A DNA stretch of 64,000 nucleotides from Collinsella ihumii. Lineage in GTDB: Bacteria > Actinomycetota > Coriobacteriia > Coriobacteriales > Coriobacteriaceae. The translations under genes were made by a program, and so were the position numbers. Of this stretch, positions 24,013-31,902 are shown one piece after another (the first letter of the stretch is position 1; every line of letters begins with the position of its first letter). The notes beneath the pieces are model-generated. The model did not search any database and had not been told where the DNA came from. It worked only from the letters and a program-made list of their open reading frames with translations. The stretch lies in NCBI RefSeq assembly GCF_900046475.1, contig NZ_FCOU01000010.1:1-64000 (forward strand), in the 5' to 3' direction.

Positions 24013-25776
24013 TTAGCTGCGGCGCTCGGCGATCTCGGCGCTCACCTGCGCGATGAAGTCCTCGACCGTGGAGGCGTGCGTCTCGTTCGTGCGGTCGCGC
24101 ACGGAGATGTTGCCCGCCTCGGCCTCCTTCTCGCCCAGGATCAGCATGTAGGGCACGCGGTCGACACCGCGGGCCTCGCGGATCTTGTAGCCGATCTTCT
24201 CGTCGCGATCATCCACGACCACGCGGATGCCGGCGGCATCGAGCTTCTCAGCGACCGTGCGCGCGTACGCACGGCTCTTCTCGGACACCGGCAGGACCTT
24301 GACCTGGACGGGCGCGAGCCACGTCGGGAACTTGCCCGCATAGTGCTCGATCAGGATGCCGATGAAGCGCTCGATGGAACCGAAGGCCACGCGATGCAGC
24401 ATGATCGGGCGCTTCTTGGCGCCGTCGGCGTCGGTGTACTCCAGGTCGAAGTTGATGGGCATCTGGAAGTCGAGCTGCACGGTGCCGCACTGCCAGGTGC
24501 GGCCGAGCGAATCCTCCAGATGGAAGTCGATCTTGGGGCCGTAGAACGCGCCATCGCCCTCGTTGATCACGTAGTCTTTGCCCAGACGCTCTAACGCCTC
24601 GCGCAGGCCGGCCTCGGCGCGCTCCCAATCCTCGTCGGAGCCCATGGAGTCCTCGGGGCGCGTGGAGAGCTCGAGGTGGTAGGTGAAGCCGAACTTCTGG
24701 TACACGGAGTCGATGAGGTTCACCACGCCCACGATCTCGTCGGTCAGCTGGTCGGGGCGCACGAACAGATGCGCATCGTCCTGGTTGAAGCAGCGCACGC
24801 GGAACAGGCCGTGCAGCGCGCCCTTGAGCTCATGGCGGTGAACCAGGCCGATCTCGCCGGCGCGGATGGGCAGCTCGCGATAGCTGTGCGGATGCGACTT
24901 GTACACGAGCACGCCGCCGGGGCAGTTCATCGGCTTGATGCAGTACTCCTCGTCATCGATGATGGTGGAGTACATGTTGTCCTTGTAGTGGTCCCAGTGG
25001 CCGGAGGTCTTCCACAGCTGCTTGTTCATGATGAGCGGCGTGGAGATCTCGACGTAGCCGGCCTTGTGGTGGATCTCGCGCCAGTAGTCGAGCAGCTGGT
25101 TTTTCAAGATCATGCCGTTGGGCAGGAAGAACGGGAAGCCGGGGGCCTCGTCGCGCATCATGAAGAGGTCCATCTCGCGGCCGATCTTGCGATGGTCGCG
25201 CTTCTTGGCCTCCTCGAGCATGCGCAGGTGCTCGTCGAGCTCCTCCTTGGTGGCGAACGCGGTGCCGTTCACGCGGGTGAGCATCTTGTTGTTCTTGTCG
25301 GCCTTCCAGTAGGCGCCGGACACGCCGGTGAGCTTGAACGCCTTGAGGGCCTTCGTGTAGGTGATGTGCGGGCCGACGCACATGTCGATGTACTCGCCCT
25401 GCTGGAAGAACGTGATGCGGGCGTCGGCGTCCAGGTCGCCGATGTGCTCGACCTTGTACTTCTCGCCGCGCTCCTCCATGAGCTTGATGGCCTCTTCGCG
25501 GGGCAGCTCGAAGGTCGTGAACTTGAGGTTCTCCTTCACGATCTTGCGCATCTCGTCCTCGATGGCGGGCAGATCGTCCTCGGACAGCGTCTTGTCGCCC
25601 AGGTCGACGTCGTAGTAGAACCCGTTGTCGGTCGCGGGGCCGTAGGCGAAATCGGCCTCGGGGTACAGGCGCTTGATGGCCTGCGCCATGATGTGGGCGG
25701 CGGAGTGGCGGACGACGTGCGTGACCTCGTCTGCAGGCAGCTCGGCTACAGACCCGTCGTTATACAGTGCTTTCAT
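24013..25776 (-). CDS. thrS: threonyl-tRNA synthetase
   Basis: Class II synthetase that charges tRNA-Thr. The second additional/editing domain has HSAAHIMAQAIKRLYP (about 24-39). The catalytic core has the class II motifs RAGEIGLVHRHELKGALHGL and the active-site cysteine in PMNCPGG. The anticodon-binding domain follows (PVQVKVLPVSEKS). At 587 residues it is shorter than E. coli ThrS because the N-terminal TGS domain is absent; the N terminus starts MKALYNDGSVAELP. The ATG has AAGGGGA upstream. The leader upstream contains a Thr/Ile-codon leader peptide and a terminator. Confidence 0.95.
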   Translation of the reverse strand: MKALYNDGSVAELPADEVTHVVRHSAAHIMAQAIKRLYPEADFAYGPATDNGFYYDVDLGDKTLSEDDLPAIEDEMRKIVKENLKFTTFELPREEAIKLMEERGEKYKVEHIGDLDADARITFFQQGEYIDMCVGPHITYTKALKAFKLTGVSGAYWKADKNNKMLTRVNGTAFATKEELDEHLRMLEEAKKRDHRKIGREMDLFMMRDEAPGFPFFLPNGMILKNQLLDYWREIHHKAGYVEISTPLIMNKQLWKTSGHWDHYKDNMYSTIIDDEEYCIKPMNCPGGVLVYKSHPHSYRELPIRAGEIGLVHRHELKGALHGLFRVRCFNQDDAHLFVRPDQLTDEIVGVVNLIDSVYQKFGFTYHLELSTRPEDSMGSDEDWERAEAGLREALERLGKDYVINEGDGAFYGPKIDFHLEDSLGRTWQCGTVQLDFQMPINFDLEYTDADGAKKRPIMLHRVAFGSIERFIGILIEHYAGKFPTWLAPVQVKVLPVSEKSRAYARTVAEKLDAAGIRVVVDDRDEKIGYKIREARGVDRVPYMLILGEKEAEAGNISVRDRTNETHASTVEDFIAQVSAEIAERRS

Positions 25777-25807
25777 GGGAATCCCCTTTTCGGTTGGTTG
25801 GAGCCAA

Positions 25808-25914
25808 GAAAAAAGCCCGTGCGTCAGACGGTGACGACGAGCGTTATGCGGCGCCTGTCCGTGGCCTGCCGGCCATGCGATGAGACAGACGCCTAGATAG
25901 TCTGAGTTCGGGCT
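25808..25914 (-). promoter_or_regulatory. putative ribosome-mediated attenuator upstream of thrS
   Basis: The 3' arm GTCTGACGCACGGGCT (25829-25814 on the minus strand) is followed at once by TTTTTTCTT. Its partner AGCCCGAACTCAGAC (25914-25900) lies inside a 14-codon leader ORF. Pairing gives two 6-bp blocks (AGCCCG/CGGGCT and TCAGAC/GTCTGA) around an internal loop, with a 70-nt loop containing its own GGCCGGC hairpin. A ribosome stalled at the leader's ACT codons would cover the 5' arm and stop the terminator forming, which would raise thrS expression when charged tRNA-Thr is scarce. The mechanism is inferred. Confidence 0.5.
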
Positions 25915-25937
25915 ATGTGAGCGAAGATTCGCTGCAT
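25893..25937 (-). CDS. thrS leader peptide
   Basis: Fourteen codons encoding MQRIFAHIARTQTI, with GGAGAGG 9 bp upstream of the ATG. Codons 11 and 13 are both threonine (ACT) and codons 4, 8 and 14 are isoleucine. Codons 8-13 overlap the 5' arm of the downstream terminator, as expected for translational control of thrS by threonyl-tRNA supply. It is too short for ordinary gene finding. Confidence 0.5.
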   Translation of the reverse strand: MQRIFAHIARTQTI

Positions 25938-26037
25938 GGTTTCAAACCTCTCCGTATCTTGGGTGAGACAGTTGTACCACTTGAAGGCCCTCGGGTCTAC
26001 CGGAGCGGACGCCAGAACCCGAAGCGTTACATAAAAT

Positions 26038-26074
26038 AAGAAAAAGTCCCCCGCCCCCGGCGCTTCTGCGGGAC
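26038..26074 (-). terminator. second terminator before the thrS leader
   Basis: On the minus strand GTCCCGC pairs with GCGGGGGAC around an 11-nt GC-rich loop and is followed by TTTTTCTTATTTT. It insulates thrS from the zinc-ribbon gene upstream. Confidence 0.6.
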
Positions 26075-26097
26075 GGCAGTCCGGCGCGCCGCGCATG

Positions 26098-26124
26098 AAA
26101 AAGCCCCCTGCGGGCAGAGGGCTT
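26098..26124 (-). terminator. terminator of the zinc-ribbon gene
   Basis: On the minus strand AAGCCCTCTGCCCGCAGGGG folds back on itself and runs into CTTTTTC, a few bases past the stop codon at 26131. Confidence 0.8.
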
Positions 26125-26130
26125 CACGCT

Positions 26131-26562
26131 CTACTGGATGTGGGTGCGGCAGTACGGGCAGACCTTCCAATGCGCATCGAGCGGACGATGGCAGCTGGGG
26201 CAGACGTTGCGCACCTGCGTGTTGCAGACGGGGCACACCACGAAGTCCTTCTCGATGGGCGCGCCGCACTGCGGGCAGGTCCCGTACTGGGCGAGCTGGC
26301 GCTCGCGCAGGGCCATGTCGAGCTCCTGCTCCTCGCGGTCGGCGAGGTAGGAGTTCGGACGCAGCACGAGATACGCGATGAGACCGACGAAGGGGATGAT
26401 CGAGACGATGCCCCATGCCCAGAACGCCTTCACGCCGCGGCGCTTGGCATCGATGAACACGTAGACGATGGAGAGCACCCAAAGCGCGGCGATGAAGCCA
26501 ACGAACAGGTAGATGGCGCCCATCAGCTGGGGCGACATGAGCTCCTGGATATACTCAGACAT
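26131..26562 (-). CDS. membrane protein with C-terminal double zinc ribbon
   Basis: A 143-residue protein of unknown role. Two N-terminal transmembrane segments (LMGAIYLFVGFIAALWVLSI and FWAWGIVSIIPFVGLIAYLV) flank a basic DAKRRG turn, as in the PLD_N/cardiolipin-synthase N-terminal domain. The C-terminal half carries CxxC knuckles in tandem (CPQC, CPVC, CPSC, CPYC), i.e. two zinc ribbons facing the cytosol. I chose the start at 26562 (MSEYIQEL) because AGAAAGG lies upstream and the longer frame has no membrane-like extension. It is a single-gene unit. It may be a membrane-linked sensor or stress protein, but there is no direct evidence. Confidence 0.7.
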   Translation of the reverse strand: MSEYIQELMSPQLMGAIYLFVGFIAALWVLSIVYVFIDAKRRGVKAFWAWGIVSIIPFVGLIAYLVLRPNSYLADREEQELDMALRERQLAQYGTCPQCGAPIEKDFVVCPVCNTQVRNVCPSCHRPLDAHWKVCPYCRTHIQ

Positions 26563-26955
26563 GACCGGACAACCTTTCTGTCCCGAACGCGGTTCACACA
26601 AACATGCCGACATTCTATACCGCGCTATGCGCATTATGCGACACGTCACGCTTTCGACATACCCACGGCCCCCGTGGGCGCCGGCCGCCTGCCCTCGACC
26701 GGTGCTCAACACCGCTGTTGGCAAAGCGACGGATTCTGCGGGAAGCGCGCAAGTGATATGCATATCTCATCGAGCAGAAGACGAACTGCCGAGGTATATG
26801 GGTATGCCGATTTGGCCGTTATGCAAAGCAGCCCTGCCATTTCCGCAGAATCCGTCGCGACGATTTCTGCGGAAAGGCACTGCGGGGTTCAATGGGGACG
26901 GGTTCGTTCCAACCTATCGACGACGGCAGCCGAGCGGGCCCGAACCGCTGCGCGC
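26563..26955. other. intergenic with inverted repeats, no gene seen
   Basis: No convincing gene. GCGACGGATTCTGCGGGAA (26726-26744) and TTCCGCAGAATCCGTCGC (26841-26858) form an inverted repeat of 18 bp apart from one extra G, enclosing 96 bp, and a looser third copy follows. A GGGGACGGGTTCGTTCCAACC unit lies at 26894-26914, matching one at 61034. Confidence 0.7.
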
Positions 26956-31335: not shown

Positions 31336-31902
31336 CTACGCCGCCTTCAGGCGGCGATCGTCCTCGGGCCGGTTGGCCCGCTCGAACTCCTCGGGGCTGA
31401 GGTATCCCAGCGCCGAGTGGGTCCTTACCCTGTTGTAGAAGCACTCGATGTACTCGAAGATCTCGAGCGCCGCCCGCTCTCGGCTCTCGAAGGTGCGCGC
31501 GTACACGCACTCGGCCTTGATGACGCCCATGAGCGACTCCATCGCCGCGTTGTCCCAGGGCGACGATATCGAGCCCGTCGACGGCTCGGTCCCGGCCTCG
31601 CGCATGGTCTTCCCGAGCAGCAGCGAGGCGTACTGCGACCCGTGATCGCTGTGGCGCGCGCAGCCCTTGCCGGGCCTCCTGCGCGCTATGGCCATCTTGA
31701 GCGCGTCGTCGGCGAGCTCGGCCGCCATGCTCGCCGACATCGACCAGCCGACGATCATCCTCGACCACACGTCCATCACGACGGCCAGGTAGAGCCATCC
31801 CTGGTGAGTCCTCACGTAGGTGATGTCCGCGAACCACAGCCTGTCCGGCCCGTCCGCGCTGAAGTCGCGCTTCACCAGGTCGGGGGCGGCGCACGGCTGC
31901 GG
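31336..31902 (-). pseudogene. IS3-family transposase OrfB fragment
   Basis: The minus strand encodes the DDE integrase core of an IS3-family OrfB: Asp in LWFADITYVRTHQGW, Asp in HSDHGSQYASLLLG, and Glu in NAAMESLMGVIKAECV, with the normal C terminus RTHSALGYLSPEEFERAN. The N-terminal HTH_21 region is cut off at a Tn5 mosaic-end remnant (31895-31913), and no OrfA is found. The truncation may therefore be an assembly effect rather than real decay. Confidence 0.75.

Follow-up and report, generated by a model that had tools for sequence, protein, structure and literature searches.

In the E. coli-type translational operator of thrS, threonyl-tRNA synthetase (ThrRS) binds a tRNA-like leader; T-boxes also control aminoacyl-tRNA synthetase genes. 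By the account of a 2005 survey of Actinobacteria, predicted ribosome-mediated attenuators precede trpS and leuS of Streptomyces; as far as its treatment of threonine operons goes, that survey gives no conserved RNA structures for them, and its genome list is without Coriobacteriia (PMC1262725). A threonine-dependent leader peptide, thrL, has been predicted before thrS of Streptomyces lividans (PMC8079986). Here we describe a leader of thrS in Collinsella ihumii, located in a stretch of 64,000 nucleotides that was analysed as a whole (the window), and its counterparts in related genomes. We did not find this element described in the literature on thrS leaders, attenuation in Actinobacteria or RNA motifs of Coriobacteria. 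It would be a small regulatory element, common to gut and oral bacteria, that controls an essential gene.

The leader combines a short ORF with threonine codons near its end, a hairpin, P1, and in many cases a terminator. Like attenuators of the trp/his type it has a short ORF of cognate codons, hairpins and frequently a terminator upstream of an aminoacyl-tRNA synthetase gene (PMC1262725), but it has no base-sharing antiterminator, its near-invariant hairpin is fixed to the stop codon and a third of the leaders are without a terminator. With S. lividans thrL it shares a predicted threonine-dependent leader peptide upstream of thrS in an actinobacterial genome; the thrL peptide MKRVRPFLETTPGFVPAR, however, has its threonine in mid-peptide and no Thr-x-stop ending, and the description of thrL gives one hairpin and does not report a U-rich sequence (PMC8079986). 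The uORF motif of Corynebacterium ilvB-II is similar in its conserved uORF, its two hairpins, the second followed by U, and its single copy per genome, although its P1, as depicted there, spans most of the uORF, whereas the present P1 begins in the stop codon; a terminator and an antiterminator are also assigned in that system (PMC10272879). The actinobacterial LEU element and cys leaders likewise have cognate-codon leader peptides with no obvious terminator, and the cys leaders carry their cognate codons near the stop codon; by the survey's description, LEU pairs its Leu codons with the ribosome site of the gene, a pairing that was looked for and not found here (PMC1262725).

The element also differs from a T-box. 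As the earlier note had stated, no T-box is visible at thrS: the T-box model RF00230 gave no match in the window at gathering score, and none at 25700-26130 even up to E 10. In the same covariance model searches the leader fell outside the Rfam 15 families, among them the threonine operon leader. T-box-like matches below the Rfam cut-off were obtained in the same genome before ileS (58.5 bits), pheS (46.4) and, weakly, ilvD (27). From these matches the genome seems to control other synthetase genes by T-boxes, so that two solutions would stand side by side in it.

Table 1. Features of the thrS leader region, in coordinates of the window
Feature	Position	Strand	Remarks
Extended -10-like promoter element TGGTACAACT	25970..25979	-	TGGTA-type
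Shine-Dalgarno-like GGAGAGG	25947..25953	-	9 nt upstream of leader ORF
Leader ORF	25937-25893	-	MQRIFAHIARTQTI*, 14 codons + TAG; ATG at 25937
Leader segment able to pair with terminator 3' arm (25829-25815)	25900..25913	-	
Thr codon 11 (ACT)	25905..25907	-	
Thr codon 13 (ACT), two codons 5' of stop	25899..25901	-	
Hairpin P1	25850..25893	-	arms 25893-25884 + 25859-25850; inner GGCC-GGCA-GGCC hairpin
Local intrinsic terminator	25809..25842	-	hairpin 25842-25815, then T6 25814-25809; -14.1 kcal/mol
thrS, threonyl-tRNA synthetase, 587 aa	24013..25776	-	TIGR00418, 698 bits vs cut-off 384

The 14-codon ORF with its ribosome site and two threonine codons, and the terminator before thrS, are present as the earlier note described them (Table 1); P1, the first base of which is the G of the leader stop codon TAG, was missing from that reading. 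Seven bases separate P1 from the local terminator in the window and 116 nt separate the leader stop from thrS. The promoter-like element suggests that the transcript would start about 26 nt 5' of the leader ATG; of the 96 leaders, 62 have a TGGTA-type element upstream, in most cases 69-76 nt ahead of codon 12. A consensus scan gave no sigma-70 site. The minus-strand gene at 26131-26763, which has zinc-ribbon-like cysteine pairs, the C-terminus CPYCRTHIQ and a weak match to cardiolipin synthase, is found upstream of thrS in many relatives. Elsewhere in the window, the minus-strand ORF at 31336-31875 presumably encodes an IS3-type transposase, which it resembles.

Of 396 genomes belonging to the class, 75 contain the 22-base block CAGACTATCTAGGCGTCTGTCC with at most three mismatches, in one copy each, and 74 of these 75 matches sit 114-213 nt upstream of thrS; the reversed pattern had zero matches in the same 396 genomes. 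A covariance model made from 58 distinct copies of the element had matches in the window's family in 24 of 65 genomes and in a second family, f2, in 80 of 140, each genome giving a single match at the threshold scored; the two families were assigned from named loci as Coriobacteriaceae and Atopobiaceae. A structural pattern, used to look for the same arrangement at genes other than thrS, was present in 70 of the 140 Atopobiaceae genomes, mostly singly and at thrS places, with some extra matches elsewhere; an element of this kind at other genes was not retained. Inspection of 29 additional, mostly weaker, model matches showed 24 to be linked to thrS and five not. In total, 98 leaders before thrS were assembled from 25 genera of Coriobacteriaceae and Atopobiaceae; seven matches with no thrS link were dropped (L186, L271, L272, L274, L275, L276 and L285), G035, which has the element, and L059 are outside the 98, and L270 and L273 are within the 98 but outside the 96 leaders used for folding and terminator counts. 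In the sister family f3 there were no thrS-linked matches in 119 genomes, the sole match proving on inspection not to be at thrS, and a sample of the phylum gave matches in 8 of 198, of which seven were from the two families and the remaining one was at E 0.004. Conservation throughout Coriobacteriia, as envisaged in the earlier note, was therefore too wide an expectation, although it holds for Coriobacteriaceae and Atopobiaceae. The leader was absent in C. aerofaciens and other relatives (L006, L014-L017, L019 and L021), of which L019 and L021 retain a terminator resembling the local one with neither leader nor P1. L270 and L273 carry the leader before a thrS whose N-terminal part is longer and of another kind, resembling a TGS domain (tblastn gave pieces of 33-35% identity); as judged from these sequences, the leader is thus not tied to one form of ThrRS.

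Comparison of the leaders indicated that the ORF is strongly conserved and far above chance. Identity between genera was at the random level (0.26-0.30) for DNA 5' of the ORF and for codons 1-8, 0.83 from codon 12 to the P1 5' arm and 0.88 in the P1 3' arm, by comparison with 0.40 in the P1 loop and 0.23-0.45 in DNA 3' of P1. Of the 98 leaders, 94 have an in-frame start with a Shine-Dalgarno sequence (SD), against 9 and 11 when the other two frames are taken as controls, and ACN triplets over the nine codons up to codon 12 numbered 138/792 in frame versus 31/792 and 45/792 in the other frames; translation of the leader is thus probable from its codon pattern, start and SD. Selection of threonine codons upstream of thrS, which the earlier note had presumed, is borne out. 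Codon 11 is Thr in 91 of 98 leaders, with between-genera identities of 0.83 and 0.91 at its first two bases and 0.33 at the third, and this conservation with a free third base marks codon 11 as selected for threonine. Codon 13 is Thr in 98/98, as ACT in 95, ACA in 2 and ACC in 1 (ACT in 83 of 86 distinct leaders), while the amino acids at codons 12 and 14 vary among leaders. By comparison, ACT accounts for 25 of 548 Thr codons (4.6%) in the first part of thrS at these loci, and for 3 of 119 across seven genes of the window. Particular synonymous codons can be favoured according to control-codon choice theory, as set out in its general form (PMC1183508); the near-exclusive ACT could instead reflect an RNA-level constraint. 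Threonine runs occur in certain lineages (TTTTTTI*, TTTTVTI*, TLTLTQTI*; asterisk, stop), and leaders without a terminator average 3.28 Thr codons versus 2.12 in those with one, figures that are not corrected for kinship. The stop is TAG in 94 of 98, the other four having GAG (three) or a TAA immediately after the Thr codon (one). Stop loss with retention of P1 and the Thr codon was seen in L115, L116, L267 and L059 (GAG or AAG); L059, Lancefieldella rimae, reads AAG at this position. Of 52 distinct leaders, 47 have CGA as Arg codon 10 (25908-25910 in the window), although CGA accounts for 10 of 493 Arg codons (about 2%) in control genes. The P values of the ACT and CGA comparisons take no account of kinship.

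The sequence alignments place the conserved core of the element in P1, which is nearly invariant and covarying. It is a 10-bp helix with 99.5% of cells paired across 58 distinct sequences, in which three pairs have changed on both sides and seven of ten are invariant; all 58 have the same four pairs, GGCG:CGCC, at the base. Its covariation score was 0.132 versus 0.069 in shuffles, with 0 of 500 shuffles reaching the real value, and did not exceed 0.073 when slid along the alignment. Mutual information, computed for 49 terminator-bearing leaders, singled out two fully paired P1 pairs; the remaining column pairs on the list stood alone and lay outside helices. P1 lies at a fixed distance from codon 13, 9 or 10 of its 10 positions pairing there in 96/96 leaders, and this holds also where GAG replaces TAG. 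Up- and downstream, the P1 arms had no partner better than in simple mononucleotide-shuffled sequence, and ACTATCTA likewise had no excess partner on either side, pairing less than mononucleotide-shuffled sequence. Six leader segments paired with their own SD region no better than with the SD of other genomes (p 0.28-0.99). Pairing of the P1 arms, the leader end or the P1 loop with the thrS ribosome site was not supported in any case. A further candidate, CAGAC:GUCUG (1:2) across the stop, was rejected: 90.0% of its cells were paired, there was no covariation and at one pair the match is lost in as many as 11 of 58 sequences.

By a set criterion, a terminator was recognised in 55 of 74 leaders and, in the larger set, in 64 of 96, leaving 32 of 96 with none. 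Its 5' arm begins 3-12 nt 3' of P1 in 64/64, so both hairpins can, by sequence, coexist. The earlier note had the leader pair with the segment ahead of the T-run, and this long pairing exists in the window, where codons 9-12 (GCCCG-CAGAC) can pair with GTCTG-CGGGC, followed by T6, at -18.2 kcal/mol. That account was incomplete, since this 3' arm can also pair locally, with a segment starting at 25842, to form a stand-alone terminator hairpin. In equilibrium folds, the free full-length RNA of the window favoured the long pairing (0.64 versus 0.08 for the local hairpin), whereas with the leader masked by a ribosome the local hairpin reached 0.85. The long pairing was dominant in 6 of 55 free leaders with terminators, the window among them, and leader and 3' arm from the same genome paired at -15.65 versus -14.89 kcal/mol when mismatched, a gain of 0.76 kcal/mol (p 0.003, kinship not corrected); the long pairing thus lies only weakly above chance, and as a general switch it was judged weak. 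In the same type of fold (n=55) the local terminator had a mean probability of 0.89 with the ribosome edge at +9 or +11, 0.79 at +15 and 0.75 at +22, and was below 0.5 in 0, 4 and 7 leaders respectively; among the cases of loss at +15 that were listed, the terminator arm is taken up by the P1 3' strand or by the linker. The terminator is therefore predicted to form at every ribosome position tried.

Given the in-frame threonine codons, the fixed distance to P1 and the absence of a T-box, our best reading, to which we assign a probability of about 0.6, is a threonine-sensing leader of thrS in which decoding of the last Thr codon gates the opening of P1 and threonine shortage raises ThrRS. The ORF, its Thr codons, their spacing, P1, the terminator and the link to thrS come from the present analysis; from them we infer stalling, ribosome geometry and the sign of the response. 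A ribosome translating the leader would have at least one Thr codon to decode and in some leaders several, the final one always standing two codons ahead of the stop. When codon 13 occupies the A site, P1 would begin about 12 nt from the first base of the P-site codon; a base at about +12 is, by established ribosome geometry, near the mRNA entry, so that a ribosome waiting at codon 13 would stand at the foot of P1. Addition of threonine and the next translocation would begin to unwind P1. Because leaving codon 13 would start this opening, P1 should stay closed when Thr-tRNA is short, the starvation state that would go with expression, and be opened by a ribosome reaching the stop codon when Thr-tRNA is plentiful. 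P1 as a whole may then influence the machinery arriving at thrS, whether RNA polymerase, termination or RNA decay, the terminator being the likely target where one follows. Against this sign, opening P1 slightly weakens the predicted terminator (mean 0.89 to 0.75). Against the reading as a whole are the folds that predict the local terminator wherever the ribosome stands, the leaders with no recognised terminator, the 4 of 98 without TAG at its place and the many relatives that do not have the element; in the window's genus 8 of 43 genomes carry it and 35 have no model match. The fixed geometry of a rare ACT, one codon, TAG and a hairpin offers a sharp test of how a waiting ribosome could govern a hairpin with which the terminator is not in competition.

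In a narrower form, P1 would act directly on RNA polymerase or a termination factor, with the ribosome as switch and the last Thr codon as gate. Antitermination RNAs of comparable action are phage put and the eps EAR. Direct action fits the near-invariant sequence, the lack of terminator overlap and the survival of P1 in terminator-less leaders and, if true, would amount to antitermination with no competing antiterminator helix; we nevertheless consider it unlikely. Rather doubtful, too, is the opposite polarity, in which the footprint of a ribosome stalled with ACT in the A site would reach the four invariant basal G-C pairs and open the base of P1, the freed 3' strand disturbing the terminator (closed off, open on). 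The complete identity of these pairs and the four leaders that lose the terminator at +15 are consistent with such an effect, but 51 of 55 retain it, the P1 3' arm has no excess of downstream complementarity, and P1 would remain closed when a ribosome stops at codon 11 or within a Thr run further upstream.

The mechanism proposed in the earlier note, in which a ribosome stalled on ACT masks a leader segment serving as terminator 5' arm and termination fails, is very unlikely: the free RNA of the window and, slightly, the matched-arm energies favour the pairing it needs, but a local 5' arm substitutes and persists at all ribosome edges, masking yields the terminator in the window, and few leaders have the long pairing as their dominant fold. 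The element has a short ORF with cognate codons, presumably translated, and an intrinsic terminator in the window and in 64 of 96 leaders, as a classical attenuator does, but no antiterminator sharing terminator bases. Because P1 and the terminator never overlap (64/64) and the P1 arms have no excess alternative partner, it is, on these folding models, not a classical competing-hairpin attenuator. Control of translation or stability, with P1 or the leader end masking the thrS ribosome site or P1 acting as a ribosome-protected nuclease site, would explain why P1 and the Thr codons persist without a recognised terminator, in some cases with thrS 92-98 nt from codon 12; we find it quite unlikely, and masking in particular has against it that none of the six leader segments favours its own SD region. 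A protein- or tRNA-binding RNA element with an incidental ORF would account for conservation of P1 and the bases around codon 13 beyond the needs of pairing or coding, and for the leaders lacking TAG, but is highly improbable in view of the third-base freedom at codon 11, the maintained frame, start and SD, and Thr runs that grow in frame.

Other repeats and hairpins were seen among these loci. In genus g11, leader codons 7-11 are a near-copy of the linker and terminator 5' arm (CACATATCGCTCGA; 25905-25930 and 25830-25852 in the window), and either can pair with the 3' arm; this is clearest in L130, L137, L140 and L146. As a general feature this direct repeat was discarded, its mean score being 7.5 versus 6.8 for mismatched combinations and the signal weak in other genera; in L140 it comprises 14 identical bases. 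L272, which is not linked to thrS, has a hairpin resembling P1 in the letters of its arms, with T-rich DNA after it (GGCGCCTGACC...GGACAGGCGCC-TTTCTTTT).
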